Origin: Vibrio lentus
GTDB lineage: Bacteria > Pseudomonadota > Gammaproteobacteria > Enterobacterales > Vibrionaceae
Direction of reading: 5' to 3'
Assembly (NCBI RefSeq): GCF_030409755.1
Contig: NZ_JAUFQE010000002.1
Location: forward strand, 3,348,001-3,412,000
DNA: 64,000 nt
Shown: positions 26,062 to 47,740 of the stretch, piece by piece
How positions within the stretch are numbered: the stretch's first letter is position 1
How the letters are laid out: each line of letters begins with the position of its first letter
Notes under the pieces: model-generated
The model's database searches: none
Told to the model about the DNA's origin: nothing
Seen by the model: only the letters and a program-made list of their open reading frames with translations
Program-made: the position numbers and the translations under genes

Positions 26062-26101
26062 TTTCATTCGGGTTAAAAATGACAAGACAAGGTGGACGGA
26101 G

Positions 26102-27376: not shown

Positions 27377-27391
27377 CACTCGGAGGCAACA

Positions 27392-31233: not shown

Positions 31234-31642
31234 ATATATCACTGCCGAAGCAGAAGAAGACATAAAAACTTACCTAGCGGAATGGGAAACGGGTAGGTAT
31301 GGAAAGAAACTAACCTGGGCCATAGTCGCGAAGGCTTTTACCTATTCTCGCCAGGCATTAAGTGGCAACACCAACATTAAAGATGCTTTCGACAAGGCAA
31401 AAAAAGTACTGCGTGAAGCAGATACTCAAGTAGACAATTTTAAGGATCTGGAAAAGGAAAATCAGCACCTTAAAAAAGAGCTAGAGAGATTAGCCAAAGA
31501 GAATCACGCGTATCAACAAAAATACCTGAGGTGGCAGATCAATGCACAACTTAGAGGAATAAGTGTTGCTGCGCTGAGTAAGCCCATCAACCCCAGTATT
31601 AAAGAAGAGTTGCGTAAGCTCTCAGAAGAAGACCAAGGGTGA
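31226..31642 (+). CDS. ginD: GinD-like small coiled-coil protein
   Basis: I start it at the ATG at 31226 (MNRYITAEAEED, 138 residues), which overlaps the ginC stop and has AGAGGA upstream, rather than at the GTG at 31211. The N-terminal part could be a helix-turn-helix (WAIVAKAFTYSRQALSGN), followed by a coiled coil (about 70-105, LEKENQHLKKELERL). This matches the fourth gene of GInt islands and resembles the TnpC-type helpers of Tn554 elements. It probably helps assemble the recombinase complex. Confidence 0.65.
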   Translation: MNRYITAEAEEDIKTYLAEWETGRYGKKLTWAIVAKAFTYSRQALSGNTNIKDAFDKAKKVLREADTQVDNFKDLEKENQHLKKELERLAKENHAYQQKYLRWQINAQLRGISVAALSKPINPSIKEELRKLSEEDQG

Positions 31643-31651
31643 GATTAAATT

Positions 31652-32173
31652 ATGGCAACAAGTGCTGAACTGGAAGTGTTAAAGGTAGAGATCAGGAAGT
31701 TGCCAGCCAGCCCCAAGCGTGGTGATGCTGTGTATAAAGCGCTTCAGGTATGGATTCCATTACAAACTGATGAAGACTGGGTGCGGCTGGTAAATGAGAA
31801 GAGCAAAAAACTCAATCAACGGGAAATTGCCGCTGAACTATGCGCCTCAGACAATATTTGGAAAAAGGAACGGTTCCGTACGCTCCTTGAGCAAATGAAT
31901 AAAAATGTCGTCGAAAAAGGTCTGCTAGAGGTGGCAATCCCCTACGTTAGTCGTGATAGTGCCTCTCCCAAAAAAACAGAACCAGTGCCTGATGCTGAAA
32001 ACCCAATTAAAAAACTTCAGGATGCCAAACTCAAAGCTGATCTACGGCGAACAGAGGGGAAACTACAACAGGCCAACCTGCGTATCCGACGACTCGAAGC
32101 TGAGCTGAAGAAGTACACAGACCTATCAGAGTTGAATCGTGCACTTGAGCAACTGACTAGACAACGACGCTAA
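31652..32173 (+). CDS. Coiled-coil accessory protein of the island core
   Basis: The 173 residues have an N-terminal alpha-helical domain (about 1-90), a Pro/Glu linker and a C-terminal coiled coil rich in Lys/Arg and Leu (TEGKLQQANLRIRRLEAELKK). It lies between ginD and the helicase gene with 9- and 10-base gaps, so it belongs to the same operon. I do not recognise a family. A structural partner of the helicase or a second DNA-bridging helper is plausible. Confidence 0.6.
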   Translation: MATSAELEVLKVEIRKLPASPKRGDAVYKALQVWIPLQTDEDWVRLVNEKSKKLNQREIAAELCASDNIWKKERFRTLLEQMNKNVVEKGLLEVAIPYVSRDSASPKKTEPVPDAENPIKKLQDAKLKADLRRTEGKLQQANLRIRRLEAELKKYTDLSELNRALEQLTRQRR

Positions 32174-32183
32174 CGGGGAACCT

Positions 32184-34475
32184 ATGGGCAACACTGCACC
32201 TAAACACCATGAAGAGTTGAAAGAATTCACTGGATTGTTGCGCGTAGTTCGCGTCGACAGTAAGGGGGCTGGCTTGTTTCGGGCGACCTGTACATTGACG
32301 GACGACATAGGAGAAATACTGGATCGCGAGGGGCTTTATTATCTAGATTCTTCATATCATCTGATGGGCCACTTCGTGGAGGTAGGACAGGTATGGCTGA
32401 TTGAGCGGGGGGTGAGGTGGTCAAGTTCCCTTACGACTCAGAATGGCTATGTCAGACCTGCTCACACTATTGAACCCAGTTTGGTGGTGATGTGCCGTCC
32501 CAGTGGTAAGCATTTGATTTGGCACTTTACAAACTACCAATGGTATCCAGGTATAGGGGAGAAAAAGGCCGAATCGTTAATTGATACTCTGAGCGACGGC
32601 TCGGGATACGTACCGTTATACGATGCGTTAGACAATCAACAAATAGACAGGTTGGCTAGCGCTCCATTGATTACAGAGTGGGATGCTGAGGTGTTAATCG
32701 AGGGCTGGGAACGGTATGGCAGCACCGATGTGCTGGCGTGGCTCGAAGACAAACAAATCGAACCAGATCTGGCATGGAGGTTTTTCTCTTTCCATGGCAA
32801 GAAAACTATCGAAGCTATCGAGGCTGATCCTTATTGCCTGACATCGTTTAACATGCAATGGCGGGAGGTCGATGAGTTGGCGCAGTTTAAGTTCGAGATC
32901 GCTCGTAATGACGAACGCCGCTTGCAGGCTGCTGTGACAGAGGTCTTATGGGGAGCATTCAATGATCACGGACACACCAAAGTTGAATTACCTTACTTTC
33001 TGGACAACATGAAGCGCTATGTCGGTGATGATCTAGAGAAGTGGGTGTCGGCGCATACAGGGATGATTGATCAGTCCAGGGGGCTAGTACGTGGTGAGTA
33101 TATCCATGCCTTTGAGCCTGCTGTAATGGAAATGATGGTAGCTAATCGTATCGCAGACCTACTGAATACCAACTACCAACCGCCACTATCAATCGACACT
33201 ATCCTTTCTGTTATTAGTGAATTCGAAGTTCAACAAGGCTTCAGGCTCACCAAAGAGCAAAAAGAGGCCGTTTCGACATCTGTTTCTACTCCTTTTTCCA
33301 TTATCACAGGGGGGGCTGGCGTAGGGAAAACCACCGTACTAAAAGCTTTGTATGCATTATATGACGCAGCGAGTTTTGAACGCGTACAGCTCGCACTGGC
33401 TGGCCGTGCAGCGCAACGCATGAGTGAAGCGACAGGAGAGGATGCAACAACCATAGCGGGTCACTTGTATCACTTTGACTGGGGACAGGTCGATGATGCC
33501 GATTTAAAACGAATGGTCGTTGTGGTTGATGAGGCCTCGATGGTTGATATCCACACAATGTATCGCTTGGTTGACAGAATCCCACCTCAGGTACACCTGA
33601 TTTTGATCGGTGACCCATATCAACTTCCTCCAGTCGGTGCGGGATTGGTCTTACATGAATTAGTCGAACGCCCCTATTTGCCTGTATCTCGCTTGAGCGT
33701 GGTTAAGCGAACGACGGCTGATAGCTCGATCCCATTGGTTGCTGGAGATGTGCGAAATGGTCGGGTGTCGAATGAGCTGGGAGATAATGTTGAATTTCAT
33801 AAAGTGGACTTGAAACAAATTGCAAATAGAGCTATCAACGAGTATATGAAGGACACCGAATCATCTCAGATCCTCTGCTCTACCAATGCGATGGTAGACT
33901 GCGTGAACACCACAGCGCAGAAGCGATTAAACCCCAATGGGGTAATCTTGCCTTATATCATTGAAGGTAAGATATATGACTCAGAAGTTCGTCTCAATGA
34001 TCCTGTCATTTGTACAGCCAATCTCTATCGTCAGGAATACGACTTACGCAACGGAACTATGGGGCGCATTATCGAGGTATACAATGAGCCGAGAACCTTT
34101 GAGGTTAAACCCTCAAATAAATCCAAAAAAACAAAGTTGATGACCTCATACGGTCGTGCCTGGTGGGATAATGATTCTGATACTGGATTTGAAACCGAGT
34201 TACCGATAGAGGTGATTGAGAAGCTTCATCTCGCCTATGGTATAACGGTGCATAAAGCACAGGGTTCACAGTTCAGGCATGTTATTTTTGTCGCCGTTGA
34301 TGGTCAGAGTCTTGATAGAACTCTGGTGTACACAGCTATTACTCGTGCGAGCCATCACGCTGTAGTTATGGGGGATATTAACGCTGTTAATAAAGCAATT
34401 AGTAGACCACCGAGTGCCGCTAACAGGCTTGTTGGACTAGGGCAGTTTTTGGACGAAATTGTAGAAGAACTATAA
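32184..34475 (+). CDS. RecD2/TraA-like superfamily 1B helicase
   Basis: The 763-residue protein has an N-terminal OB-like part, a helix-hairpin-helix element (PGIGEKKAESLID), then the helicase motifs: Walker A GGAGVGKTT (about 376-384), VVVDEASMVD, IGDPYQLPPVG, and the C-terminal VHKAQGSQF and YTAITRAS. RecD2-type enzymes are 5'-3' helicases without RecBC. In this operon it may process the excised island or support its replication, which would agree with reports that GInt islands replicate on excision. Confidence 0.8.
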   Translation: MGNTAPKHHEELKEFTGLLRVVRVDSKGAGLFRATCTLTDDIGEILDREGLYYLDSSYHLMGHFVEVGQVWLIERGVRWSSSLTTQNGYVRPAHTIEPSLVVMCRPSGKHLIWHFTNYQWYPGIGEKKAESLIDTLSDGSGYVPLYDALDNQQIDRLASAPLITEWDAEVLIEGWERYGSTDVLAWLEDKQIEPDLAWRFFSFHGKKTIEAIEADPYCLTSFNMQWREVDELAQFKFEIARNDERRLQAAVTEVLWGAFNDHGHTKVELPYFLDNMKRYVGDDLEKWVSAHTGMIDQSRGLVRGEYIHAFEPAVMEMMVANRIADLLNTNYQPPLSIDTILSVISEFEVQQGFRLTKEQKEAVSTSVSTPFSIITGGAGVGKTTVLKALYALYDAASFERVQLALAGRAAQRMSEATGEDATTIAGHLYHFDWGQVDDADLKRMVVVVDEASMVDIHTMYRLVDRIPPQVHLILIGDPYQLPPVGAGLVLHELVERPYLPVSRLSVVKRTTADSSIPLVAGDVRNGRVSNELGDNVEFHKVDLKQIANRAINEYMKDTESSQILCSTNAMVDCVNTTAQKRLNPNGVILPYIIEGKIYDSEVRLNDPVICTANLYRQEYDLRNGTMGRIIEVYNEPRTFEVKPSNKSKKTKLMTSYGRAWWDNDSDTGFETELPIEVIEKLHLAYGITVHKAQGSQFRHVIFVAVDGQSLDRTLVYTAITRASHHAVVMGDINAVNKAISRPPSAANRLVGLGQFLDEIVEEL

Positions 34476-34687
34476 GGGTTCGTGATGAATATTAAAATTT
34501 CATACTGGAAATCGATATGATGTTATTTGTAAATTGAAAATGTATAGAGGTGTATCTGAACTAATCACGGAAAACTAAGCTTTGTAACATTGTGTGTGGG
34601 CACCAGTTTTTTGACCAACATTTTGTAATGTTCTCGATTGTGCTGATAGTCGAATTTGAGTTTACTTTACATGCAACAACAACTCAT

Positions 34688-34709
34688 GCACTTTCATGTT
34701 TGAAAGTGC
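34688..34709 (+). terminator. Stem-loop ending the island core operon (possible terminator)
   Basis: GCACTTTCA-tgtt-TGAAAGTGC is a 9-bp perfect stem, about 210 bases after the helicase stop. There is no T run, so it may instead be part of the recombination-site structure just downstream. Confidence 0.4.
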
Positions 34710-34721
34710 TGGCTGTATCGG

Positions 34722-34787
34722 TTCTGGACAAAAGTGAGTCAGTGACTTTCCTAAATTAGCAAAAGCGGATTAATTCAGGTATGGAAC
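34722..34787 (+). repeat. 66-bp junction repeat, copy 1
   Basis: TTCTGGACAAAA begins the copy, AGTG follows at base 19, the core CTAAATTAG is at 34751-34759 (29 bases from the start), and CAGGTATGG is at 34776-34784. The blocks recur in the same order and spacing (within one base) at 41379 and 48209. This copy ends the recombination core. Confidence 0.8.
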
Positions 34788-34967
34788 ACTTGGTCAGGTA
34801 AAAAGCAAGACGCGACCCCAAGATTTCTCTTTCCTAGGTGTGACCCTGTTTAAGTTACTAAAACCCTTGTTCTAGGTAAGAGGCAATATTTTGATATCTA
34901 TTAGGTTTTAAAGTCTAATAAGTGCTAGATTATGCTCATAATCTCATACAGCCGGAAAATCTACATC

Positions 34968-36956
34968 ATGGCCACTCGGATGTTAAAAGTTGAAGTCGAG
35001 AGTGACTTCTTAAGTAAAGTATCAAATGCCTCATCTTATGTTGCCATATCTGAGCTTATATGGAATGCACTAGATGCTGATGCAAACAAAGTCACGGTTA
35101 AGTTGAACGAAGACACGTTGTATGGTGGGTTAACAAATATTGAAATCACGGATGATGGATTCGGTATCACTGATGAAATTGCGGATAAGCACTTCAGTAA
35201 GCTCGGTGGTTCATGGAAAAAATTCAAACATAAGACTGACTCTGGACGCTTCTTACATGGTCAGGAAGGGCAAGGACGATTTAAACCTTTTTCTCTAGGA
35301 AAAGTGATTGATTGGGATACGGTATATTCTGATGAACAAGAAAGTGCTTTAAAAACTTTTACAATAACCGGGATGGCCGATGATATTGGTAATTTCAGAG
35401 TTACCGATTCCGAACACACTAAAAGTATGCATTGCGGTACAACTGTTCGCATCTCAGAGTTAAGTAAGAAAGGTCTCACTATCTCTGAAAAGGGGCTTTC
35501 TAATTATGTATCCTGTGCATTTGCTATTTACTTATCTAAGTACCCTGATGTTCAGCTATATGTAAATGACATTAAGATCGATCCTTCTGAGCAGATTCTA
35601 CATCAAGAAACACTTGAGCTTGATCCAGTAACATTTGAAGGGGAGTCTTTTAACTACTCTATGAAAGTTATTGAATGGAAATGTGATACTAAAAACGAGC
35701 TTCATTTTTGCGATTCAAATGGTTTCCCTTTACATTCTCATGATAAACAGATCCGAGGTACTAGCGAATTCGAGTTTACAGCGTATTTAGTATCTGAACA
35801 TATTAGTAAGCTATCTTCTAAAGGTGTTCTTGAATTAGGCGGCTTAGAACCTTCTTTATCTGCACCTCTGCAAGATGCTATTGATAAGCTGAAACATCAC
35901 TTATTCCTTCGTAAGTTGGCCAAATCAGCCAACATTATCCAAAAATGGAAAGATGAAGAAATATACCCTTATGAAGGGGGATATAGTGATGCGATAGATG
36001 AAGTCGAGAGACAAATGTTCGATGTTCTAGCTGTAAATATTAGTCAAGAGTTACCCGAGTTTGAAAAGGCTCCAGTTAAAGTAAAACGCCTTCAATTTCG
36101 GTTGCTTAAGCAGATAGTGTCTTCAAACCCTAATGATCTACAGGTCATTTTTGAAGAAGTTCTGAGCTTGTCGTTAAAGAAGCAAAAAGAGCTTGCTGAG
36201 CTGCTTGAAGATATTAGCCTTACATCGATAATTAATGCCTCTAAAACTATATCAGACCGATTAAAGTTTATCGTTGGCTTAGAGCACATCATATTTGACC
36301 CTGAAAAGAGAAAGGTCCTTAAGGAACGCTGTCAACTACACAAGATCCTTGCAGAGAATACTTGGGTCTTTGGTGATGCGTTCACAATGTCTGTAAATGA
36401 TCAATCCCTTACTGAAGTTCTTAAGAAGCACCTAAAAGCTATGAGGGTAGACTTGATTCCGGATGAACCTGTGACGAGGGTAGATAAATCAAGAGGAATT
36501 GTTGATTTGATGCTTACTCAATCGGTTCCCAAAAACCATGCAGATCAGTTAGAGCATCTGGTGATAGAGCTAAAAGCCCCTAAGGTTCCTATTGGGCCTA
36601 AAGAGATACAGCAGATTGAATCTTACGCATTTGCTGTCGCAAGTGATGAGAGGTTTAACAAGTTGGATGTAAAGTGGAATTTTTGGATTGTTTCAAACGA
36701 TACAACTGAGTATACCGATCATAAACTAAAAGCAGATAGAACGGGACAAGGTATTATTCATCAGACCGATAACATGGTTATTCAAGTTAAAACTTGGGGA
36801 CAACTAATTAAGGAATGCAAACATAGATTAGAGTTCGTCCGCTCTCATTTGGATCTTGATGTAACTACAACCGAGGGGCTACAATTTCTAAAGTCTCACT
36901 ATGCTGATTTTACCAAGGATGTCATCTTTGAAGATGAGCTTGTTTCAGAGCAATAA
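34968..36956 (+). CDS. GHKL ATPase fused to PD-(D/E)xK-like nuclease (putative defence protein)
   Basis: The N-terminal 200 residues are a GHKL (Hsp90/MutL/MORC-type) ATPase: motif I SELIWNALDADA with Glu29 and Asn33, motif II ITDDGFGI near 60-67, and a lid GQEGQGRFKPFSLG near 100. The C-terminus has a nuclease-like pattern, Asp513 in GIVDLML and Glu534-x-Lys536 in VIELKAP. I start it at ATG 34968 (MATRMLKVEVE, 662 residues). MORC-like GHKL ATPases joined to nucleases are known from restriction and defence loci, so anti-phage activity is plausible. It is a single-gene unit with a strong terminator. Confidence 0.7.
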   Translation: MATRMLKVEVESDFLSKVSNASSYVAISELIWNALDADANKVTVKLNEDTLYGGLTNIEITDDGFGITDEIADKHFSKLGGSWKKFKHKTDSGRFLHGQEGQGRFKPFSLGKVIDWDTVYSDEQESALKTFTITGMADDIGNFRVTDSEHTKSMHCGTTVRISELSKKGLTISEKGLSNYVSCAFAIYLSKYPDVQLYVNDIKIDPSEQILHQETLELDPVTFEGESFNYSMKVIEWKCDTKNELHFCDSNGFPLHSHDKQIRGTSEFEFTAYLVSEHISKLSSKGVLELGGLEPSLSAPLQDAIDKLKHHLFLRKLAKSANIIQKWKDEEIYPYEGGYSDAIDEVERQMFDVLAVNISQELPEFEKAPVKVKRLQFRLLKQIVSSNPNDLQVIFEEVLSLSLKKQKELAELLEDISLTSIINASKTISDRLKFIVGLEHIIFDPEKRKVLKERCQLHKILAENTWVFGDAFTMSVNDQSLTEVLKKHLKAMRVDLIPDEPVTRVDKSRGIVDLMLTQSVPKNHADQLEHLVIELKAPKVPIGPKEIQQIESYAFAVASDERFNKLDVKWNFWIVSNDTTEYTDHKLKADRTGQGIIHQTDNMVIQVKTWGQLIKECKHRLEFVRSHLDLDVTTTEGLQFLKSHYADFTKDVIFEDELVSEQ

Positions 36957-36971
36957 GAAGAATATTCACCG

Positions 36972-37002
36972 ACATAGTGTAAGCATAATGCTTACACTAT
37001 GT
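36972..37002 (+). terminator. Terminator of the GHKL ATPase gene
   Basis: ACATAGTGTAAGCA-taa-TGCTTACACTATGT is a 14-bp perfect stem starting 16 bases after the stop codon. The following sequence is GT-rich rather than a pure T run; the symmetry would let it act on both strands. Confidence 0.75.
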
Positions 37003-37054
37003 TTGTATCACTTTGTTGAAGCTTAAGTTTTACCACCTACCTATACAGTATCGA

Positions 37055-37518
37055 TTCTGTATTAAGAATACTAACTCCCTAAAGTCATTATCAATATCGT
37101 TTTGTGTCACACCAATGTAACGTTACACCCTCAGAGCTGTGGCAAAGTCGTGCAATATTTTTGGTACTTTTGTCGAGGTGATAGCCTCTGGCCTTTCTCA
37201 TTGCGTGTTTTCACCAATCGATGAGAAAGCTTGGCTAACAGCCCGACGACTCAATGTGTTAGCTGCTTTTTTGATCCGAGGGATGATTTCTAAACTTCTT
37301 GGATTTAGTGCTATTTGTGCCACTTTGCCCACCTTTGACTCGCGGATGGTTAAGCGGTCTTCTTCTATATCACTGAACTTAATCGCTACTAAATCAGAAA
37401 TCCGTAAAGCGAGATTGATACCAACGCTCCAGATGTCCGCCATTAACTTACTATGCAGTATTTCTAATAAGTGGCTATTAAAAATACCTGAATAGTCACC
37501 AAAAAAGGTTCGATACAT
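37055..37518 (-). pseudogene. Decayed tyrosine recombinase
   Basis: On the bottom strand, 37518-37198 encodes the first part of a recombinase catalytic domain (ILHSKLMADIWSVGINLALRISDLVAIKFSDI, with the catalytic-type Arg). It then meets a stop. The family continues in other frames: KSTKNIARLCHSSEGVT, then YIGVTQNDIDNDFREL near 37110-37060. At least two frameshifts separate the parts, and the central HxLRH box is missing. It is a relic of an earlier small integrase, unrelated to the three gin recombinases. Confidence 0.75.
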
Positions 37519-37659
37519 TCAACAACAAGTTCGCATTTTAGTATCGACTTTACTATTTTCGATTGTAGATAGAGTAGTATAGTAGCTACATGATTTTGAT
37601 AAGTAAGTTCTATAGTTGTGTAGAACTTTCCCTTTATAACGAATAATTGTGGTTTTAAT

Positions 37660-38772
37660 ATGGATCAAGACAGTATTGCACGGCAGTTAAGGCACTGGTT
37701 AACGCGGAGTTTACCTAGTAACTCTAGCCGAACTGTTAGTGAGCTAGGTATATCCCTCGCTTCTGATGTTGGTTTGAAAAGAACAGAGAATCAGGACAAA
37801 GTTGTTTTACTTAGAGCGCAAGTTACACCAGTAAAATCTTTTGTCGTTGGTGTTTTATGTGATGGAATGGGTGGGATGGTTGACGGTGAGGCGTGCGCTT
37901 CTCTTGCTATATCTTCTTTTATTTCAAGCTGTATTCGAAATCGCTCATTTGGTGTTGACCAACGTTTGATGAATGCAGTAGAGCATGCTAACCAAGAGGT
38001 TTTTAACGAATATAGGGGTAATGGAGGAGCGACTCTTTCTGCATTTATTATTGATAGTGATGGAAAATCTAGCGCTTTAAATGTTGGTGATAGTCGTATT
38101 TATATCGCTAGTGACACTGAGGTAACTCAATTATCTACAGACGATACTATCGAAGGCCAACTCAATCGAGAAGTGGAAAATTCTCCAATGAGCGGTAAGT
38201 TACTTCAGTTTGTCGGTATTGGTAATGAGTTAGAGGCTCATCAATTAGAGCTACCAAAGTTAACATCGATCTCCAAACTTGTCATGACAAGTGATGGTGT
38301 CCATTACATCAACAAAAGTACATTTAGATCTCTGCTGTTACAAGATGTCAAATCGTCAGATCTTTCAAATAGACTAATTGATGTAGCTAAATGGTGTGGG
38401 GGACATGACAATGCCACAGCTTTGGTTCTATCGCAGCCTTCTTCCATTTTTTCCAAATCCTTGTCAGCTTTGACTGGTACAGTGCAGCTATGGGACTACA
38501 ACGGTGATGTTTGTTTTATTGGCATTGATAAAGCTTCATCCAGGAAACTAGAAGCTGTTGAGTTAAGTAGTTCAATCGAAAATGAACCTAGTTTAGATAG
38601 TGGCGTGAAATTATCATCAGCCCGAACTGATAATGAAATCAAGGGTGCTTCAGAAAAGAACAAAAGACAAAAAAAACAGTATAAAAAAACGACAAAAGTT
38701 CATGAGGTTGAGAAAAATAAAACTGAAGAAACTAAAGATGTCCCACAGTTAAGGATTGATTTTGATGACTAA
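37660..38772 (+). CDS. PP2C-type Ser/Thr protein phosphatase
   Basis: The 370 residues contain the metal-dependent phosphatase motifs: TENQDK (about 44-49), CDGMGG with Asp68, LNVGDSRIYIAS, MTSDGVHYI and GGHDNAT with Asp250. The last 60 residues are Lys/Glu-rich and probably disordered. PP2C enzymes remove phosphate from Ser/Thr using Mn2+ or Mg2+. The stop overlaps the next kinase start by eight bases, so it forms an operon with the two kinases and presumably opposes them. Confidence 0.9.
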   Translation: MDQDSIARQLRHWLTRSLPSNSSRTVSELGISLASDVGLKRTENQDKVVLLRAQVTPVKSFVVGVLCDGMGGMVDGEACASLAISSFISSCIRNRSFGVDQRLMNAVEHANQEVFNEYRGNGGATLSAFIIDSDGKSSALNVGDSRIYIASDTEVTQLSTDDTIEGQLNREVENSPMSGKLLQFVGIGNELEAHQLELPKLTSISKLVMTSDGVHYINKSTFRSLLLQDVKSSDLSNRLIDVAKWCGGHDNATALVLSQPSSIFSKSLSALTGTVQLWDYNGDVCFIGIDKASSRKLEAVELSSSIENEPSLDSGVKLSSARTDNEIKGASEKNKRQKKQYKKTTKVHEVEKNKTEETKDVPQLRIDFDD

Positions 38773-39844
38773 TATACCTTTATCCGGTATTCCTGCTAGA
38801 TATACACCTCTTGACTCTCACGGTAGTGGGGGCATGAGTGATGTATTTTTCTTCTATGATACTAATTTAGAAAGAAATGTCGCAATTAAATCTATCAGAG
38901 ATATGAGCCAGATTGATCGGCTGACCGATGAAATTAATGCATTGATGCAACTGCGTTCAAAACATGTTGTGCAAGTTTATGATGTTACTCCTCGCGTTAA
39001 TGACTCATTTGGAATTGTGATGGAGCATGTAAATGGTAGTGATTTAGTTGACATACCAGCTCACCTTAAACAACCTGAAAATCTACTAAAATTGTTGTGG
39101 CAGATTGCTTCTGGGATAAGTGATATACATGCTTCAGGTATCATTCATCGTGATATTAAGCCCAACAATATGAAGCTGGACGAAGAAGGTATACTGAAAA
39201 TATTTGATTTTGGTCTAGCTAGAAATCAAGGACTAGATGCTCAAACAGTCGGTTTTAAAGGAACTTACTATTTTTCTGCGCCAGAGCAATATCAAGGTGG
39301 GAATGTTAACTTTACTACTGCTGTTGATGTTTATGCTTTCGGTGTGACAGCCTTGTACCTAATTACTGAAAATCTCCCCCCTGAACTGTTAAGCATTCCT
39401 CCTACTCCTATTACTGGAAATGTATATGACGGTACTTTTTTATCCTCCTATCCACGTTTAGTTGAACTTTTTGAACAGTGCCTTAGCCAAGTCCCTGACG
39501 ATAGACCTAAAATGATCGAGGTTGTTAACGAAATAGGTAAGCATCTATTATTTAATAAACACCAAGCTCTAACTGTACATAATGGCAATTCACATACATT
39601 AAATTCAGTATCGCGAAACGTTCAACTCTCATTGGGGACTATTGGCTCTTGTCATCTTGAATATGATGGTCTGAACTTTACCATGACTAACGTTATTGGT
39701 GAGGTATATGTTAATAACGGACTAATTACACAAAACCGTCAAATGAAAGGAGCTTGTGTAATTGCAATTGGCGGTGCACATAGACATGCATATGAACGTA
39801 ATTACATCACTTTCGATATTTCAAATCCCGAGGTTACATTATGA
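38765..39844 (+). CDS. Hanks-type Ser/Thr kinase with FHA-like C-terminus
   Basis: The kinase domain (about 13-255) has the Gly loop GSGGMSDV, Lys42 (VAIK), HRD with Asp130, DFG with Asp148 and the activation-end SAPEQY. Residues about 275-359 form a beta-rich tail with a pattern like an FHA phosphothreonine-binding domain (LGTIGSCHLEYD, GEVYVNNG, YITFDISNPEV). No membrane helix is present, so it is cytoplasmic. Start ATG 38765 has AAGGA 9 bases upstream. A TGA-less overlap (ATGA) joins it to the second kinase. The FHA call is pattern-based. Confidence 0.85.
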   Translation: MTNIPLSGIPARYTPLDSHGSGGMSDVFFFYDTNLERNVAIKSIRDMSQIDRLTDEINALMQLRSKHVVQVYDVTPRVNDSFGIVMEHVNGSDLVDIPAHLKQPENLLKLLWQIASGISDIHASGIIHRDIKPNNMKLDEEGILKIFDFGLARNQGLDAQTVGFKGTYYFSAPEQYQGGNVNFTTAVDVYAFGVTALYLITENLPPELLSIPPTPITGNVYDGTFLSSYPRLVELFEQCLSQVPDDRPKMIEVVNEIGKHLLFNKHQALTVHNGNSHTLNSVSRNVQLSLGTIGSCHLEYDGLNFTMTNVIGEVYVNNGLITQNRQMKGACVIAIGGAHRHAYERNYITFDISNPEVTL

Positions 39845-40917
39845 TTGGCCCACATGAGTTAGGTGATATTGTCGTATCTAGGTATAGAATCGATGGGTTT
39901 GTTGGCGAAGGAGGTATGCAATATGTCTATTGTGCTTATGATCAATTACTTGGCCGAACCGTTGCACTAAAGACCCCTAAAAACTCATCAGCTGAAAAAC
40001 GATTCCGTCGAAGTGCGATTGTCTCTGCAAAAGTAAACCACCCTAATGTAGCGAAAACTCTTGATTATGCAGAAGAATTCGATCGATTCTATTTGGTTGA
40101 AGAACTAATTGACGGTGATGACTTAGAAGGGGCATTACTGAAGCATGTCGAATATTTAGACCCTTTTTTAATAGCTAGAGTTTTACACTATCTAGCTAAA
40201 GGTTTAGCAGCCTCTCACCATGTTGGTGTAATTCATCGTGATTTGAAGCCAACAAATATTATGATTGAAGGTGGTTTTCAAGTAGGTGCCATCAAAATTA
40301 CTGATTTTGGTATTGCTAAAATGGCAGAAGGAGAGATGACAGAAGCTGCTGAAGGTGGCACTGGCACTCTGAGCACTTCTGCCACAGCTGTGGGGGCACT
40401 GCCTTATATGGCACCAGAAGCTATTGAGACACCAAAAGAAGTCGGCTTGAAAGCTGATATTTGGTCGTTAGGAGCTATGACATATGAGTTATTAACTGGC
40501 AATAAACCTTTTGGTTCAGGGCTAAGGGCTGTCAGTAAGATATTAAGTGTAGATTACCCTGACTTCCCTCCCTTTGTAACTTCCAACCCACAGTTCCGTT
40601 ATTTGTCTAGTGAACTTATAAGCATTGTAGAATCATGTTTAAAACTAAATCCTTTGGAACGACCATCAGCAGATGAAATCGTAGAAAAATGCAGCAAACT
40701 TTGCTATCCAATTAGCGAGCGTTTTTTCGGAAACATTAGTGAAATACGTTATAACTCCTTTGGTTACATCAGGTTAGAAGATGCTTCACGTGTTTTTTAT
40801 CACGTTAACTGTGTGTATGGAGATCGACCTGCTATGGGGGAGAGAGTACTACTATCTAAATATCAAGGTGAAGGTTCTGATAGAGCACTCCCTGTAATTA
40901 AGGTAAAACAACAATAA
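39841..40917 (+). CDS. Hanks-type Ser/Thr kinase with cold-shock-like C-terminal domain
   Basis: The kinase domain (about 15-285) is complete: GEGGMQYV, Lys44 (VALK), HRD with Asp134, DFG with Asp155, MAPEAI. The last 65 residues look like a cold-shock/OB nucleic-acid-binding domain: an RNP1-like FGYIRL, an RNP2-like VFYHVN, then GERVLLSKYQGEG and a closing LPVIKV strand. No membrane helix. A kinase tied to a nucleic-acid-binding sensor would fit a defence or stress switch acting with the PP2C. The family of the tail should be tested by structure prediction. Confidence 0.85.
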   Translation: MIGPHELGDIVVSRYRIDGFVGEGGMQYVYCAYDQLLGRTVALKTPKNSSAEKRFRRSAIVSAKVNHPNVAKTLDYAEEFDRFYLVEELIDGDDLEGALLKHVEYLDPFLIARVLHYLAKGLAASHHVGVIHRDLKPTNIMIEGGFQVGAIKITDFGIAKMAEGEMTEAAEGGTGTLSTSATAVGALPYMAPEAIETPKEVGLKADIWSLGAMTYELLTGNKPFGSGLRAVSKILSVDYPDFPPFVTSNPQFRYLSSELISIVESCLKLNPLERPSADEIVEKCSKLCYPISERFFGNISEIRYNSFGYIRLEDASRVFYHVNCVYGDRPAMGERVLLSKYQGEGSDRALPVIKVKQQ

Positions 40918-40957
40918 AGATTTTGTACAGTTTAGCTGGATAAATTATTAGCCTAAA

Positions 40958-40977
40958 AAGGGAGCTAATGCTCCCTT
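40958..40977 (+). terminator. Stem-loop after the kinase operon
   Basis: AAGGGAGC-taat-GCTCCCTT is an 8-bp perfect stem about 40 bases after the last kinase stop. Only TTCT follows, so it is a weak intrinsic terminator. Confidence 0.55.
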
Positions 40978-41000
40978 CTATGCCACCAGCTTAAATGTAC

Positions 41001-41231
41001 CTACTTCGCACAGTCATACCATCCATCACCACACTCATACTTGAACGTCCCATTAGGATAGGAAACAAACCGATAGTGCATTGCCATATCGCCATTGGGC
41101 ATTTCAGTTGGCACATTAGTTCGGTGCTCAAATACGTTGTTCTCACCTTCCTCATAACGCTTTGTATGCTCCCACCAATCTGCTCCTACAGAATCTTGGG
41201 AACCATAAGTTTGAATGATGAGGGTCAGGTC
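41001..41231 (-). pseudogene. 3' fragment of an unidentified gene
   Basis: The bottom strand reads about 76 codons without a stop, DLTLIIQTYGSQDSVGADWW through PNGTFKYECGDGWYDCAK, ending in TAG at 41001-41003. An in-frame TAA precedes it and there is no start codon near the 5' end, so it looks like a truncated C-terminus. Its broken end lies about 150 bases from the second junction repeat. I do not recognise the family. Confidence 0.5.
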
Positions 41232-41699
41232 TTACTTTTTGAATCGACTAGTTTAAGTATCGTAAATATTGATATTCAAGAACTAGCTTTAGGTCGCATT
41301 AACTTGCAATGGGGCAAATCTGAGCTAGATAGCACTTTTGAGCAAAATGCCACGAGTAAAACCTCATGTCTACGAAGCTTCTGGACAAAACCTTGCCAGT
41401 GCTTTTGCTAAATTAGAAAATCATCAATAACTACAGGTATGGCAAATTTACTTGTGAAGAGCTAGTGCGATGAGTAACATCACACTAGCAAAAGTATTGG
41501 TTTATGTTAGGTGCGTACTAAGTGACGTTACGTTAAATTAAGTTCCTCACATTAAGCGACATGCAGCCATCTAACATTCAAAAATCGGTTTAAGTCTTTG
41601 ATTTCAAATTGACCATGAAAGATTAAATAGGCATAAATAAACGTGTAAATACGGCCGTTCGCCGTAGAGAAAGCGTTAGGATTCCGAGAGGTTTTTGGT
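41232..41699. other. Non-coding junction between the two cargo modules
   Basis: No credible gene. It contains the second junction repeat (41379-41444) and the promoter region of the hydrolase. A top-strand frame crossing it is antisense to the truncated fragment and has no ribosome site. Confidence 0.5.
41379..41444 (+). repeat. 66-bp junction repeat, copy 2
   Basis: Starts TTCTGGACAAAA like copy 1, with AGTG at base 19, the core CTAAATTAG at 41408-41416 and CAGGTATGG at 41434-41442. Spacing to the core is identical to the other copies (29 bases). It separates the kinase module from the hydrolase module. Confidence 0.8.
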
Positions 41700-42449
41700 A
41701 TGACTACTGAAATAATATTACTAAGAGGTTTATTTCGAGGAAGTTATCATTGGGGTAATTTCACGGAGCGTTTATCCACTATTTTTCCTGATTGCCCAAT
41801 TAGTTGTATTGATATTCCCGGCAATGGCTATTTGTCTTCGGAAATATCTCCAAATACCATTTCAGGAATGGTAGAAAGTGTTAGAAATCAACGCAATCGT
41901 CAAGGGAAAGTTCTTATCTTAGCTGTTTCAATGGGAGGGATGGTAGGTCTTAAATGGGCAGAATTATACCCACAGGAGGTCGAGTCAGTCATTTGCGTTA
42001 ATACAACGGCAAAGGACTTTAGCCCTTTTTACGAAAGACTATTGCCACGAAACTATTTAAGAATTGTGAAAGCTTTGTTTTCGTCGTCGTTGAGTCGAGA
42101 AGGTGCGATTTATCAGATGGTTTCGAACCAACCATTTAATCGAAAGACAGTCAACGAGTGGGCGAACCACGGTCAAAAATATCCGATAAGTGTTGCAAAT
42201 TTTTGGCGACAATTGAGAGCTGCTACTGGGTTCGTAGTCTCGAGGCCACAATGTGAACTACATTTTGTTGCTTCGTTAAATGATGGGCTTGTGAATTCTA
42301 ATGCCACTCAAGCGATGGCTAAGAAGTGGGGTGCTCGGGTAATAGTTAATGAAATAGATGGGCATGATGTAGCGTTAGACAACCCTGAGTGGTTGCTGAA
42401 AGTTGTAGGGTCCATTTGGCTCAAAGCCAAACAAATTGTTCAAGAGTGA
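41700..42449 (+). CDS. Alpha/beta hydrolase
   Basis: The 249 residues show an alpha/beta-hydrolase fold: opening strand and HW...W motif (LLRGLFRGSYHWGNF), nucleophile elbow AVSMGG with Ser in the middle, and a C-terminal catalytic His in DGHDVALDNPEWL. No signal peptide, so cytoplasmic. It stands alone on the top strand with GAGAGG before the ATG. Substrate is unknown; the family includes esterases and lipases. It is plausible passenger DNA of the second cargo module. Confidence 0.8.
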   Translation: MTTEIILLRGLFRGSYHWGNFTERLSTIFPDCPISCIDIPGNGYLSSEISPNTISGMVESVRNQRNRQGKVLILAVSMGGMVGLKWAELYPQEVESVICVNTTAKDFSPFYERLLPRNYLRIVKALFSSSLSREGAIYQMVSNQPFNRKTVNEWANHGQKYPISVANFWRQLRAATGFVVSRPQCELHFVASLNDGLVNSNATQAMAKKWGARVIVNEIDGHDVALDNPEWLLKVVGSIWLKAKQIVQE

Positions 42450-42821
42450 TTCGCAACGCGTGCCTACAAAAGTCGGTGTTTATTATTCCTATTATGTAAA
42501 ATCTGTGGGTTTGCTATCAGAAACAGCCCTTAAAGCACGTCAAACGCTCTTAGCGAAGATTTTAGACGCTTAATCAAGCGATATAATTCCATACTGTCTT
42601 AAAAATTTATAACGATTTCAGAGCGATTTATAGGGCAAAAATCAGCGTGTTCATTTGGGTCAAGAACAGCACAATGACCCCCATTTTTCGTACTTTGTGA
42701 GTTTTGGGTGTCAGATTAGTTATATTTGGTCAAAATTCACTCGACCGATAACGTAGGCTTTTTTGGCGAAACCAATAATGGGGCAAAGGTTAGTCAAGTT
42801 AGAACAACGCTCGCGTATACG
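42450..42821. other. Gene-free spacer
   Basis: About 370 bases between the hydrolase and the terminator of the acetyltransferase gene. I see no credible gene, RNA or repeat in it. Confidence 0.5.
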
Positions 42822-42854
42822 GAAACGCCCAAAGTTATTAGCTTTGGGCGTTTC
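42822..42854. terminator. Terminator after the acetyltransferase gene
   Basis: GAAACGCCCAAAG-ttattag-CTTTGGGCGTTTC is a 13-bp perfect stem, about 32 bases past the stop of the leftward acetyltransferase. T runs are short on both sides. Confidence 0.7.
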
Positions 42855-42886
42855 TTCTAACAAACTTGGTTACGACAAACCGAGCT

Positions 42887-43318
42887 TTAAAGTGTCATAT
42901 GCAGAATTGGAAAAGGTTTTTCCATATCATCAAATGGCGAGCGCGAAACGACTTTGAAGCCCATATGCTCGTAGAAACCTACTGCCTGTGGGTTTTGTTC
43001 GTTTACATCGACTTTGGTTGCGCCTAACTGCTCTATTGCGTATTGCAGCAGCACCTTGCCAATTCCTTGCCCTCTGGCCTCGTTTAAGATGAAAAGCATT
43101 TCAACCTTAGAATCATGGATACCCACGAAGCCTATAATTGAGCCATCATTACTTTTAATACATCTTAACGTGACAGCAGGAAAAGCCTTCTCAATGATAA
43201 TTGGTTTAAAAAACTCAATATCTTCTTCTGTTATGAAGTCATGAGTTGCTCGGACTGAGTTTTCCCAAACATTCAGCATTTCTGCGTAATCTTCAGGAAG
43301 CACACTTTCTACAATCAT
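42887..43318 (-). CDS. yjaB: GNAT acetyltransferase, YjaB-like
   Basis: The 143 residues align well in memory with E. coli YjaB: VRATHDFI, MLFILNEARGQGIGKVLLQYAI (acetyl-CoA loop GQGIGK) and VNEQNPQAVGFYEHMGFKVVSRSPFDDMEKPFPIL. It uses acetyl-CoA to acetylate an amine; the natural substrate is not established. The start codon overlaps the TGA of a broken upstream frame (ATGA), so it was once coupled to that gene. It may now be expressed from within the disrupted operon. Confidence 0.85.
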   Translation of the reverse strand: MIVESVLPEDYAEMLNVWENSVRATHDFITEEDIEFFKPIIIEKAFPAVTLRCIKSNDGSIIGFVGIHDSKVEMLFILNEARGQGIGKVLLQYAIEQLGATKVDVNEQNPQAVGFYEHMGFKVVSRSPFDDMEKPFPILHMTL

Positions 43319-43522
43319 TGTGTTTTCTCTATAGTTGACTGAAATTCATGTGCAGCCGCGAGCGTGTATTCTATTCGCAAATCATTAAGTAGTCTAATGA
43401 TGTAAGCAAAGAGTTCTGGCTTGGAATGGGGCAATTCTGCGTTACGATGATCTACACCGTCACTGATGATCTACACCGTCACTGTGTCCCAGAGTTACGA
43501 AGTGTCCCGCTGTGAAGGTTCT
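43315..43522 (-). pseudogene. 3' exon of a small gene interrupted by the group II intron and a 19-bp duplication
   Basis: Joining 45725-45681 to 43522-43315 (bottom strand) gives a frame that starts MSRFLPARKLNSEVS, continues RTFTAGHFVTLGHSDGVDH, and after skipping one copy of a 19-base tandem duplication reads NAELPHSKPELFAYIIRLL to a TGA that overlaps the acetyltransferase start. With both copies present the frame stops at TGA. The product is unrecognised. Coherence of the frame across the intron and its coupling to the next gene support it as real, though it is short. Confidence 0.5.
43446..43483. repeat. 19-bp tandem duplication
   Basis: GATGATCTACACCGTCACT occurs twice head to tail (43446-43464 and 43465-43483). 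Nineteen is not a multiple of three, so the duplication shifts the frame of the small gene just described. Confidence 0.9.
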
Positions 43523-45680
43523 GTCGAGTAGACGACACTTGTTACCAAGTGCCGCCCCTCTAAGAACCGTACGTGCAACTTTCACTGCATACGGCTCAAG
43601 CCTCCACTAAGGCATCATTGATACCCAGCAACTTATAACGCAGTCGGGACAGGTTCTTTCCAAGAGTTGCGGGCTAGCCTTTTGGGTTTTCTCTTCGCCA
43701 AGTATTCTTGGTATTGAGGATCAAAAGGGGTCGCTGCACTCCTGATTTTTACGTGTCGCTCGATGGGCACTTTCGCTATTTGGAACAGATTGAAGTGACA
43801 GTCCATGTTCATGATTTTCTGCCAACCGTGAAATTGCCACTGGCCTTTACGATTAAGAAAATACTTGTGAACAATCCAGTCTTTGGACTTAGTTGGATGA
43901 CGTCTAACTGCCCAGTGCCATAGCGCTTGGAATACTTTGTGGCCGACATACCCGAATACTTGTTTGGCAACACAGTGGCGATAGTAACTCGCCCATCCTC
44001 TGAGTTTCGGATTTATCAATTTGATAAGGTCATTAACAGGGATGGTTGCGTGCTTTTTAATGAGTTCTCTTAGATTTCTCAAGAATAACAACGTGTTGGA
44101 TTTACTCGGTTTAATGAGCAATTTCCCTTTGTACTTCCTATGATTGAAGCCCAGAAAGTCAAAGCCATCATCAATATGAGTGATCTTCGTTTTCTCTTCG
44201 GAGAGGGTTAACCCTCTTTCTGCCAGAAAGTCAGCAATCAACGGTTTGATATCATTCACTAGCACCTCCTTTGAAGAGCAGGTGACCACGAAATCATCCG
44301 CGTAACCGATAAAGTTGGCCCTAGCACCCTTTTTCAGGGCTGTAGATTTTATTTGTTGCTCTATTCCCGCGAGAGTTATTAGCATCAAAGTTGGAGAGAT
44401 TATTCCACCTTGAGGTGTACCCTCATCGGTATCGTAGAACAGTCCCTTATCCACATAGCCAGACTTTAACCATTGCTCTAACATACGTTTATCTACCGTG
44501 ATATTGTTCATAAGCCATTCATGCCCGATTTTGTCGAAGCAAGCTTTAATATCTCCCTCAAGAACCCATTTCGCTGATCGCTTTAGAGCCAAACATTTGA
44601 AGCACTGACTGACCGCGTCAGCCGTGCTGCGATTTGGCCTAAACCCATAGCTATTGAGGTCGGCAAACGTTTCGGACACAGGCTCTAATGCAAGAAGGTA
44701 TAGAGCTTGTTGCGCTCTATCAATCATGCATGGAATGCCTAATGGCCTGAGCTTACCGTTCTTTTTGGGAATGTAGATACGTTTGAGTGGTTTTGCAGAG
44801 TAAGCCTTGCGACTCAGTTGATTGACTGCTTTCATACGGCGTGCATCTGTGTTCCAGATAACACCGTCTATTCCAGACGTTTTACTGCCTTTATTCTGAG
44901 AGACTCGTTTAACCGCAAGAAGCTTGGCTGAACGAGAATGAGTCAAGAGCCACTGTAAAGACTTCACCTTACCGTATTTCTTTTCTCTAGTTGCTTTTGC
45001 GATACGCATTTGAAGCTTTAATACGTGCGCTTCAACGGATTTCCAGTCGATGGACTGCCATTGAGCGCCGTCAGAAGATGCACTAATCTCTTTCGAGACC
45101 ATCATTTGCTTTTCTCCTTGAATAAAGTTCTTCAAATTCTCTCGCAATGGGAGACCAGTCGGAAGTGGGCTCACTTTCGTGATCAGACATAAGTCTGTAT
45201 CTGCATCATTACAATGTAGCTTTCGCTTTTTCCGACCTCCTATACCTGCATCACTATCGGCCACAAAGGCTTTCCCAAAGGGAGTGATACAGGCTTACCC
45301 TGTTCCGTATGTCGCGCAATGTCAGGTTAGATGCCCACTATAGTGCGGAGAGTGCGGCGACCACGAAAAAGTACTGTCCAACCTCTTTCCAACTCTCATT
45401 GCCTTTTGGCCACAGCGTATTAACCACTTCCGCTGCTTCATCATATAACGCACCTTGAATGGATTCACATACGTTCATCATACTGACTCCCTAGCACTTA
45501 CCTGAATTGTGGTTTTCAGGAGGAACGTCCTCTCACGATTCTTTTCCCACTCAGCCCAACGGCCAAGTTTCGTTACATTGTCCGAGCCGCTGCTTTATTC
45601 AGGCTCGTAGGTTCATCTGGTGATACAGACGGTTCACTCGTTAAGCGGTGAACAACGCTTCATACGACTTCAGGTCGCAC
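43523..45680 (-). mobile_element. Group II intron with its maturase gene
   Basis: The bottom strand begins GTGCGACCTG at 45680, the 5' consensus of group II introns, and ends CTACTCGAC at 43523, the AY 3' end. Domain V is the 34-nt hairpin GAGCCGTATGC...GTACGGTTC at 43597-43564, and domain VI follows. Domains I-III occupy about 45680-45270. The intron splits a small gene downstream of the helicase. Its 5' exon ends GAAGTGTCC and the 3' exon carries the complement GGACACTTC, so the target was near a hairpin. Confidence 0.88.
43633..45105 (-). CDS. ltrA: Group II intron reverse transcriptase/maturase
   Basis: I start it at the ATG complementary to 45103-45105, which has AAGGAG just upstream; a longer frame extends into structured intron RNA. 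The 490 residues hold the RT domain (PKKNGKLRPLGIP, SYGFRPNRSTADAV, GTPQGGIISP, catalytic GYADDF with Tyr268-Asp271) and the maturase/X domain (LIKLINPKLRGWASYYR). The C-terminus (HVKIRSAATPFDPQYQEYLAKRK) lacks an HNH endonuclease, so insertion would rely on replication forks. Reading frame is intact, so the intron may be active. Confidence 0.93.
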   Translation of the reverse strand: MMVSKEISASSDGAQWQSIDWKSVEAHVLKLQMRIAKATREKKYGKVKSLQWLLTHSRSAKLLAVKRVSQNKGSKTSGIDGVIWNTDARRMKAVNQLSRKAYSAKPLKRIYIPKKNGKLRPLGIPCMIDRAQQALYLLALEPVSETFADLNSYGFRPNRSTADAVSQCFKCLALKRSAKWVLEGDIKACFDKIGHEWLMNNITVDKRMLEQWLKSGYVDKGLFYDTDEGTPQGGIISPTLMLITLAGIEQQIKSTALKKGARANFIGYADDFVVTCSSKEVLVNDIKPLIADFLAERGLTLSEEKTKITHIDDGFDFLGFNHRKYKGKLLIKPSKSNTLLFLRNLRELIKKHATIPVNDLIKLINPKLRGWASYYRHCVAKQVFGYVGHKVFQALWHWAVRRHPTKSKDWIVHKYFLNRKGQWQFHGWQKIMNMDCHFNLFQIAKVPIERHVKIRSAATPFDPQYQEYLAKRKPKRLARNSWKEPVPTAL

Positions 45681-45725
45681 GGACACTTCTGAGTTAAGTT
45701 TCCTCGCCGGCAAGAACCTGGACAT
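45681..45725 (-). pseudogene. 5' exon of the intron-split small gene
   Basis: Fifteen codons (MSRFLPARKLNSEVS) lie between the helicase stop and the intron. They are in frame with the 3' exon at 43522. The start is 15 bases after the helicase stop codon, as in an operon. Confidence 0.4.
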
Positions 45726-45740
45726 TAGCGTGTTTGGGCC

Positions 45741-47120
45741 TTACGAAACCACAAAAGCAGAAATAACTCTCTGCCTAAACGCCCCAAGCCTTAGTTCATC
45801 AAACGCGCAAAGTGCGACATCAATATTCTCAGTGTTCCTTGTCGTGCTATTCCATATCAGCTTAGAGCTAAGTCCTCCTCGCTCTTCTAGCAACCCCTTT
45901 TCGCTCAGACGGTTGCGCGTAGTATCTGGCTCGGCTTCTGCAAACTTTTTCCACTTTGCATATATACATGACTCAGGAATATCTTGTTCAATCCTTTCTG
46001 CATAGTCAATCAAGCTTTGTTCAGCAAAGGTGAATAACCACGCTTGTTGATTTGTCACGCCGTTCACACGAAGAATTCTCCCGAGCACCTGTCTGAAGTA
46101 CAATTCGGTTTTGACTGAACTCATGTGACAACAAACTTGAAGGCGCGGAATATCGGTTCCCTCACTAATCATTCCAACGCTAACAATCCATTGAGTATCG
46201 CTTCGTCTATAACGTTCAATCTCTGCTAAAGGCTCTTCATGCCGATAGGTCACTATTGAGACCGATTGAGCATACTTTTCAAAAAGTACCTTTTTAATTG
46301 TTTGTGCGTGCTGAACTGATGCAGCAACAATTAACCCTCCAGCCCTCGGGGATCTAGAACGGATTTCTGCAAGCTTTTTGCAACCCAATCCAAGTAAGTA
46401 CTCCATTGCATCGTCATTATAAATGATGCTTTGATATGAGGCCTTAGTCTGCTTAATCATTTCCAATATTGAAGAAAAAGACTCCACCGTTTCATCGTTC
46501 GTCACAGTCAAATGTTCATTATCAACCAAAACAATCTTAGGGGCTCTGCAAACCTTATCGCCGATTGCTTGTTTTAACGTGTATTGATAATCAACTAAAA
46601 GTATTCCGTCAGGATCGCTGTACTCTCCCAATACTATCGGCAAAGAATCTGAACGCCACGGAGTCCCTGAAAGAGCAAGGGTATACGTTGCGAGTCCTTG
46701 AATCTTTGCAAGGACTTGTTGCCCCCAAAAGTTCGCATTTTCAATCTCTGTACCAGAGCAGTGGTGTATCTCATCAAAGACCACAAAAACTCGATGATTT
46801 CTTAGCGTTAGCCAAAAGTCTTCATTTAGAAACTGAATCGACTGATAAGTAAGAGATCGTCCAATAGAACCTAATCCTCCGTTAAAGGTACAATTAAGAA
46901 TCTGTGAAAAGGTTTTCTTTATTCCGCTTGAAACCGTTAAAGAAGGTGAGAAACATAATACAAGGTCGACCTTGTCCTCTTGAATCAACCTTGAAGCGAC
47001 TGTCGCAGCCAGTACCGTTTTCCCAGCCCCTGGCGTTGCTTGGCAGAAGAAGTGCTGCTGGTTTGAGCTGTATTTCTGTAATGCCTTCTCTGAGCATTCA
47101 GCCTGCCATGGCCTTAGCAC
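45741..47120 (-). CDS. Superfamily 2 DEAD/DEAH-type helicase
   Basis: The 459 residues have an N-terminal Q-motif-like LRPWQAE, Walker A TPGAGKT (Lys34), DEIH at 116-119, SGTPWRSD, and C-terminal SVGMISEGTDIPRLQ and RQVLGRILR. It resembles the helicase subunits of restriction-type enzymes but has no nuclease or methylase domain. The start overlaps the 177-residue gene by seven bases, so the two are coupled. With the dedicated XRE regulator this resembles a controlled restriction or defence unit. The intron lies just downstream. Confidence 0.85.
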   Translation of the reverse strand: MLRPWQAECSEKALQKYSSNQQHFFCQATPGAGKTVLAATVASRLIQEDKVDLVLCFSPSLTVSSGIKKTFSQILNCTFNGGLGSIGRSLTYQSIQFLNEDFWLTLRNHRVFVVFDEIHHCSGTEIENANFWGQQVLAKIQGLATYTLALSGTPWRSDSLPIVLGEYSDPDGILLVDYQYTLKQAIGDKVCRAPKIVLVDNEHLTVTNDETVESFSSILEMIKQTKASYQSIIYNDDAMEYLLGLGCKKLAEIRSRSPRAGGLIVAASVQHAQTIKKVLFEKYAQSVSIVTYRHEEPLAEIERYRRSDTQWIVSVGMISEGTDIPRLQVCCHMSSVKTELYFRQVLGRILRVNGVTNQQAWLFTFAEQSLIDYAERIEQDIPESCIYAKWKKFAEAEPDTTRNRLSEKGLLEERGGLSSKLIWNSTTRNTENIDVALCAFDELRLGAFRQRVISAFVVS

Positions 47121-47647
47121 GACTGGTTGTCCTCACAAAGTGTTTTGAGAACACTGGTGAGTACGTTCACTCTTCCTAACAACTGCGCTGAATGCTCTCT
47201 TGCTTGCTCAAGAAGTGGAAGCAACCTCGGCTCGAGTTCAGGAAATCGGCTACAGAGAGATTGATACTCATTAATCTCCCCAAAAACAATCTCTAGTTCA
47301 CCTTTGTACTGATTGCGTTCGTATCTTAATACCGAGTAATCAGACGAGGTGGAAAAAGTAACCTTAGTTTTGTCTGATGCAGTATCGGTTTGAAGGCCTT
47401 TAAATAAGTCTGTTTGAAAGTATCGTTTCTGCTGCCCCGTCCCTTCAACTCGAAGCCAATTGTTCTTCACCAAACGAAGAAGCTGTCGATAAACCTTACG
47501 GCGAGCATCATCCAAATCAACATAGGAGTCATCAATCGAAACAAATGCATCTCTTAGCTCAACAACTAAAAAACCATCCATCTCTCTTTCAATCAATAGG
47601 TTGTGCATTTCATCACTGATTTTCAAAGAACGCTTCATGTACCGCAT
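47114..47647 (-). CDS. Helicase partner protein, winged-helix and helical
   Basis: The 177 residues begin with a possible winged-helix DNA-binding region (KISDEMHNLLIEREMDGFLVVELRDAF; KVYRQLLRLVKNNWLRVEGTGQQKRYF) and end in long helices (about 110-170), likely a coiled coil. ATG 47647 is used, with ATG 47638 as the alternative. It is the first gene of the leftward pair, directly downstream of two operators. A DNA-specificity or regulatory partner for the helicase is the simplest reading. No named family was recognised. Confidence 0.6.
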   Translation of the reverse strand: MRYMKRSLKISDEMHNLLIEREMDGFLVVELRDAFVSIDDSYVDLDDARRKVYRQLLRLVKNNWLRVEGTGQQKRYFQTDLFKGLQTDTASDKTKVTFSTSSDYSVLRYERNQYKGELEIVFGEINEYQSLCSRFPELEPRLLPLLEQAREHSAQLLGRVNVLTSVLKTLCEDNQSC

Positions 47648-47660
47648 ATACCATTAAAAT

Positions 47661-47711
47661 ACTAAGGATTGCTTAGTATACAGAAATTAGTAAAACTAAG
47701 AAAATCTTAGT
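47661..47711. promoter_or_regulatory. Twin operators ACTAAG-N5-CTTAGT
   Basis: ACTAAGGATTGCTTAGT (47661-47677) and ACTAAGAAAATCTTAGT (47695-47711) are perfect 6-bp inverted repeats with 5-base centres, 34 bp apart, in the 93-bp gap between the divergent helicase-partner and XRE genes. They are almost certainly the binding sites of the adjacent XRE protein, which would control both directions as restriction controller proteins do. Confidence 0.85.
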
Positions 47712-47740
47712 CACCGTGAGATCAGAGAAATGAAACTTAA

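Follow-up and report, generated by a model that had tools for sequence, protein, structure and literature searches.

The stretch of Vibrio lentus DNA analysed here (contig NZ_JAUFQE010000002.1, 64,000 nucleotides, hereafter the window, from a 5.9 Mb genome) carries three consecutive genes on one strand, which encode a PP2C-type phosphatase and two Ser/Thr kinases. The C-terminal tail of the first kinase (kinase 1) is modelled as an FHA fold, and that of the second (kinase 2) as a cold-shock domain. The same arrangement defines KKP (kinase-kinase-phosphatase), in which a PP2C gene (PfpC) is followed by two kinase genes (PfkB and PfkA) (Guo et al. 2024, PMC11341870; here and below, statements on that paper refer to the portions of it available to us). 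With a probability of about 0.86, the triplet is a KKP module (PfpC-PfkB-PfkA) on a mobile Vibrio island, that is, a kinase toxin restrained by a phosphatase. A preliminary description of the window did not know the set as a described system; because gene order, gene lengths, motifs and tail folds match those published for KKP, it is not an undescribed one.

A phosphatase gene followed by two kinase genes

All three frames are open; phosphatase and kinase 1 overlap by 8 bases, and kinase 1 and kinase 2 by 4 (ATGA). The start of kinase 1 is the ATG at 38765, with an in-frame TTG also present at 38756. Both kinases keep the GGM, HRD and DFG motifs and match the Pfam Pkinase model (E 4.6e-37 for kinase 1, 1.3e-48 for kinase 2), and the phosphatase carries the PP2C motifs ENQD, DGMGG, GDSR and GGHDNAT. 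The overlaps, the intact catalytic motifs and the unlike C-termini of the two kinases are therefore as first described. At the family level, the phosphatase matches the NCBIfam model NF033484 (Stp1/PP2C) with E 1.6e-31 and 109.7 bits, against an equivalog cut-off of 230, and its Pfam signal is weak (PF00481, E 0.045, under the cut-off). Its residues 1-369 match the phage family phrog_17277 (E 1.7e-94), whose function is given as unknown in PHROGs.

Homologues are numerous for each protein. At E ≤ 1e-20, there are 3795 for kinase 2 among 7999 candidates scored and 1329 for kinase 1 among 3063, both counts including kinases that do not belong to KKP; 384 phosphatase homologues were obtained at E ≤ 1e-10 among 4436 candidates. 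Homologue lists and motif counts refer to the best 120 for each protein. The triplet itself was looked for in 27 other loci, with one genome (G020, loci L003 and L140) counted once. These loci include 5 (L028-L032) of at least 80 found in a contig scan, the other 75 having 27-38% identity and ending by query residue 310, and 14 (L108-L121) of 31 on viral contigs, where L122 was compared separately and 16 were left out. Of a further set of 35 loci, 14 (L141-L154) fall on contigs already used, and 21 were left out. Not all of the loci are independent, since a number of the P2 copies from E. coli are almost the same.

The order PP2C, kinase 1, kinase 2 on one strand is found in 26 of the 27 other loci, and in 22 the triplet is intact and uninterrupted. 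Four triplets are imperfect, with a broken gene in L023, L030 and L111 and an insertion sequence between genes in L024, and in L028 kinase 1 is short and no phosphatase was matched. The 4-base overlap between the kinase genes is kept in 26 of 28 loci, the window included. Because the order recurs in this way, the arrangement is more than chance, and the concern that the set might occur only here is refuted.

The carriers of the triplet are diverse. In E. coli P2-like prophages it lies between a replication gene and a portal gene (for a plasmid copy, only the portal side was seen), and Phage_GPA and Phage_portal are listed among KKP neighbours in the legend of Fig. 3g of PMC11341870. Among 5426 genomes, 18 showed similarity at the DNA level, and in each of them less than 80% of the query was aligned. 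The E. coli P2-prophage triplets at L021 and L022, which are of the published KKP kind though not established as the bench-tested ones, share 42.0-42.5% identity with the window in kinase 1 and 53.6-54.7% in kinase 2. Xanthobacter, Rhizobium and Pantoea plasmids carry the triplet too, as do the 14 viral contigs examined, and a phage collection gave a single match at E ≤ 1e-40, from a Klebsiella phage. On two of the plasmids, annotated defence genes adjoin the triplet: genes of an ABC-three-component system directly follow it on a Rhizobium Ti plasmid (L025:13485-17038), and a Shedu SduA-domain gene lies directly upstream of it on a Rhizobium indicum plasmid (L026:8242-9690).

Closer to the window, the module is sporadic. 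Within the genus, 2 of 227 genomes match at E ≤ 1e-60, the window's own included; very close homologues are present on another contig, from V. splendidus (PP2C 94%, kinase 1 96%). A class-wide sample yielded 1 of 369 genomes at the same threshold, the window's own only, with at most five candidates scored per genome, so that misses are possible.

Modelled folds of the kinase tails

Folded alone with AlphaFold2, the kinase 1 tail gives a mean predicted local distance difference test (pLDDT) score of 92.0, and the model matches FHA structures. The tail is thus likely an FHA fold, as had been proposed, although the resemblance is visible in the folded model only: a profile of the tail compared with PDB sequences retrieved no FHA chain at E ≤ 10. 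The end TFDISNPEV, earlier read as FHA-like, is indeed present in the tail, but the pattern T[FLV]DxSxPE occurs in 107 of the 120 kinase 1 homologues and is a signature of the subfamily, not an FHA hallmark.

Three residues, Arg, Ser and Asn, are conserved in FHA domains that bind phosphothreonine. When the corresponding registers are inferred from the order of the modelled strands, the presumed Asn register holds Asn in 7 of 120 homologues (some of the counts over 120 being crude) and in none of the 16 tails that were aligned. In these tails, the presumed Arg register is occupied by Arg in 7 cases and by Lys in 4, and two candidate Ser positions hold Ser in 0 and 8. Because these presumed phosphate-binding positions are poorly conserved, phosphothreonine reading by the modelled tail is doubtful. 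Residues that are invariant in the tail are H11, Y45, V59, N62, N63, V77, G81, R90, T94, S98, P100 and E101. This suggests that the FHA-fold tail of these kinases may serve for docking rather than for reading phosphothreonine, an idea that is directly testable.

The kinase 2 tail, likewise folded alone, has a mean pLDDT of 90.7. Foldseek matches its model to Salmonella CspE (E 1.4e-5), its profile matches cold-shock proteins (CspB, E 4.6e-7), and among 25 family members scanned at E ≤ 1 the Pfam CSD model is found in 9 and an S1-like model in 24. Model, structure match and profile match agree in this way with the cold-shock domain first suggested for this tail. The RNP1-like motif reads GFI in 108 of the 120 kinase 2 homologues, GYI in 5 (the window's own cluster included), GFV in 2, GFL in 1 and GWI in 1; in 3 it is not readable, and these are probably the three N-terminally short ones. 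An RNP2-like VFFH or VFYH is present in 99 of the 120. Because the aromatic RNP positions are kept, nucleic-acid binding by this tail is possible, as judged from the sequence.

The carrier island and its gene content

The boundaries of the island were drawn by BLAST against two island-free congeners, to which homology breaks off at 25933 or 25938 of the window and is picked up again at 48712 or 48700. In 36 of 40 congeners, ssb and csrD are separated by less than 1 kb, and in 19 of those by 126-156 bp, against ~22.9 kb in the window; of the other four congeners, one has an 18 kb gap, one has the two genes on different contigs, and two have no csrD match. Between 25900-26130 and 47600-48900, no exact word of at least 12 bases is shared, direct or inverted.

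At the left end, 26102..31642 holds a row of three tyrosine-recombinase-like genes followed by a small gene, a set presumed from its sequence to be the mobility module of the island. The third recombinase-like gene matches only Pfam Phage_integrase (E 0.0022, under the cut-off) and no integrase phrog. The island resembles GInt, strand-biased (SE) and RIT elements in that one of its ends carries three consecutive recombinase-like genes together with a small fourth one, according to the portions of two accounts available to us (PMC5385486, PMC10214605). A RecD2-like helicase is also carried. On account of the island boundaries and the neighbouring gene content, the triplet is cargo of an island with mixed, partly defence-like content, which bears out the earlier view of a self-contained phosphorylation module located on an island.

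Table 1. Coordinates of the triplet and of its carrier island, counted from the first nucleotide of the window
Feature	Position	Strand	Remarks
PfpC-like PP2C phosphatase (proposed antitoxin)	37660..38772	+	370 aa, 1113 bp; catalytic part ~residues 35-257, followed by Lys/Glu-rich tail
PfkB-like Ser/Thr kinase (kinase 1)	38765..39844	+	359 aa, 1080 bp
Kinase 1 C-terminal tail, modelled FHA fold	39530..39841	+	without Pfam FHA sequence match
PfkA-like Ser/Thr kinase (kinase 2)	39841..40917	+	358 aa, 1077 bp
Kinase 2 C-terminal tail, modelled cold-shock (OB) domain	40690..40914	+	GYI version of GFI motif; RNP2-like VFYH
Carrier island, ~22.8 kb	25939..48700 (right edge approximate)		between ssb and csrD/mshH, names read from translations
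Three consecutive tyrosine-recombinase-like genes	26102-27376, 27392-29002, 29002-31233	+	integrase phrogs on first two only
Small coiled-coil-like gene	31211-31642	+	follows the recombinase-like genes

Several other genes of the neighbourhood may be recorded here. A GHKL ATPase (34932-36956) has a restriction-like C-terminal part, weakly like BbrUII/HgiDII, and matches phrog_6203 along almost the whole protein. Immediately ahead of the phosphatase gene, an open reading frame of 106 aa on the minus strand (37198-37518) reads by eye like a fragment of a tyrosine integrase, and a group II intron-type reverse transcriptase, recognised from its translation, lies farther along the island (43633-45264, minus). 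At 45741-47647, also on the minus strand, a ResIII/RadD-like helicase gene adjoins a gene for 177 aa that resembles no family clearly, and the two may form a further defence pair. Outside the island, ~29 kb upstream of the triplet, a small prophage at 362-8309 combines a head protein (phrog_8536), a packaging ATPase (phrog_2666), a nicking-type replication gene (phrog_91) and an integrase, and we take it to be possibly of the PM2/corticovirus kind.

Mode of action, alternative readings and known systems

In the mechanism proposed for the triplet, the PP2C phosphatase would hold kinase activity down during growth, and the two kinases, made from overlapping genes, would act jointly through their FHA-fold and cold-shock tails. 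Upon infection, the phosphatase would be inhibited by a protein of the phage, for example one for replication or helicase loading, and the freed kinases would phosphorylate themselves and essential host proteins. Growth and phage production would then stop, in the manner of an abortive-infection-like, phosphorylation-based toxin-antitoxin. We infer by analogy that this copy acts like other KKP modules. In the published system, a tripartite toxin-antitoxin, co-expressed PfkA and PfkB halt growth and PfpC neutralises them by dephosphorylation; both kinase tails and the GFI motif are required for toxicity, and the known phage trigger is Gp59 of T4, which binds the phosphatase and inhibits it (PMC11341870). 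The KKPs tested came from Pf6, Shewanella W3-18-1, V. tasmaniensis, E. coli 15EC039 and Salmonella CT18, and four modules from other hosts, one of them Vibrio, gave E. coli defence away from their own prophage (PMC11341870). The likely role in defence put forward in the preliminary description is supported.

Defence need not be the main task of such a module. The triplet might be KKP by descent and serve mainly to regulate or stabilise mobile elements, either its own island or prophages in the same cell, by phosphorylating a nucleoid protein of the host; its part in defence would then be secondary, or it would have none. In Pf6, KKP governs two Pf prophages by phosphorylating MvaU (PMC11341870), which makes this a real alternative or addition, if an unlikely one; the same authors raise control between mobile elements for KKP copies outside prophages, and the small prophage upstream of the triplet might also speak for it. 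On the other side stand the defence given by the four modules in E. coli and the absence of any prophage around the triplet here. A combination of both tasks, in which KKP would be an arbiter that defends against lytic phages and also controls excision of the island or of the tailless-type prophage ~29 kb away, its FHA tail locking the kinases together and no longer reading phosphothreonine, is speculative and very improbable.

The preliminary description had instead proposed a sensor switch, in which phage nucleic acid would activate kinase 2 through its cold-shock domain and the FHA domain of kinase 1 would read the resulting phosphothreonine. Both tails do show the proposed folds by model, the kinase 2 family conserves the aromatic RNP1-like positions, one candidate Ser position is half conserved, and the published toxicity depends on both tails and GFI; yet the published trigger acts on the phosphatase (PMC11341870) and the other presumed FHA positions are poorly kept, so the proposal finds no direct support and appears quite improbable. 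It is least probable that the triplet is a decayed or silent passenger whose genes are intact but whose activity was lost on the island. The reverse transcriptase and integrase-like fragment of the island, the broken copies in some related loci and the GYI motif would fit such a history, against which stand the intact frames and catalytic motifs, the very close V. splendidus homologues and the occurrence of GYI in other members of the family.

Several other systems that contain kinases were compared with the triplet and rejected. For MADS, Mad6 matches are limited to the kinase domains (E 3.1e-49 and 1.6e-59; 107 and 126.2 bits against an NCBIfam cut-off of 460), and the other MADS matches among the 10 proteins scanned are weak (mad8, E 0.0014, at 45741-47120; MADS3, E 0.095, at 32184-34475). 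The PglW match is likewise confined to the kinase domain, and filing under PD-T4-6 was rejected as a match to a Hanks kinase domain. TerY-P triads resemble the triplet in placing a PP2C beside a kinase, and they contain TerY, a protein of von Willebrand type (VWA). In the present triplet, the third place is taken by a kinase that ends in a cold-shock tail, and no VWA-type domain was found among the 10 proteins scanned.

Comparison with KKP gives a different outcome. KKP modules are defined by genes of 900-1300 bp, an FHA domain on PfkB, a cold-shock domain on PfkA, a GFI/A motif and a phosphatase that PF13672 or COG0631 recognises; more than 1200 clusters have been counted, of which more than 90% lie in prophages (nearly 90% according to the Discussion), and 70 of 114 non-prophage copies are near mobile-element genes (PMC11341870). 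The triplet shares with them the gene order, lengths of 1113, 1080 and 1077 bp, the kinase and PP2C motifs, the mobile-element location and, by model, the FHA-fold tail on the first kinase and the cold-shock tail on the second.

A number of points weigh against membership. The window has GYI in place of GFI or GFA, a conservative change, and its kinase 2 itself misses the Pfam CSD model. Pfam FHA (PF00498), the name that Guo et al. give to the PfkB domain, was found at E ≤ 1 in none of 36 kinases (26 and 10, the window's included), in a scan where HMMER filters drop most matches above E ~0.1, and Foldseek of the FHA tail gave no match at E ≤ 0.001. PF13672, the PP2C model of Guo et al., is not matched by the window phosphatase at E ≤ 0.1, although it does match many of its homologues. 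The module also sits on a recombinase-bearing island with no prophage around it, in contrast to most published KKPs, and its membership is argued from architecture, modelled folds and family similarity, the tested KKPs having been compared by description only.

Taken with these points, the triplet is still best read as an ordinary new example of the known KKP antiphage system, probably a well-preserved member on an unusual carrier. KKP appears here as cargo of a recombinase-bearing Vibrio island, outside the prophages that hold the great majority of published cases, and its roles in defence and in element control should therefore be separable there.

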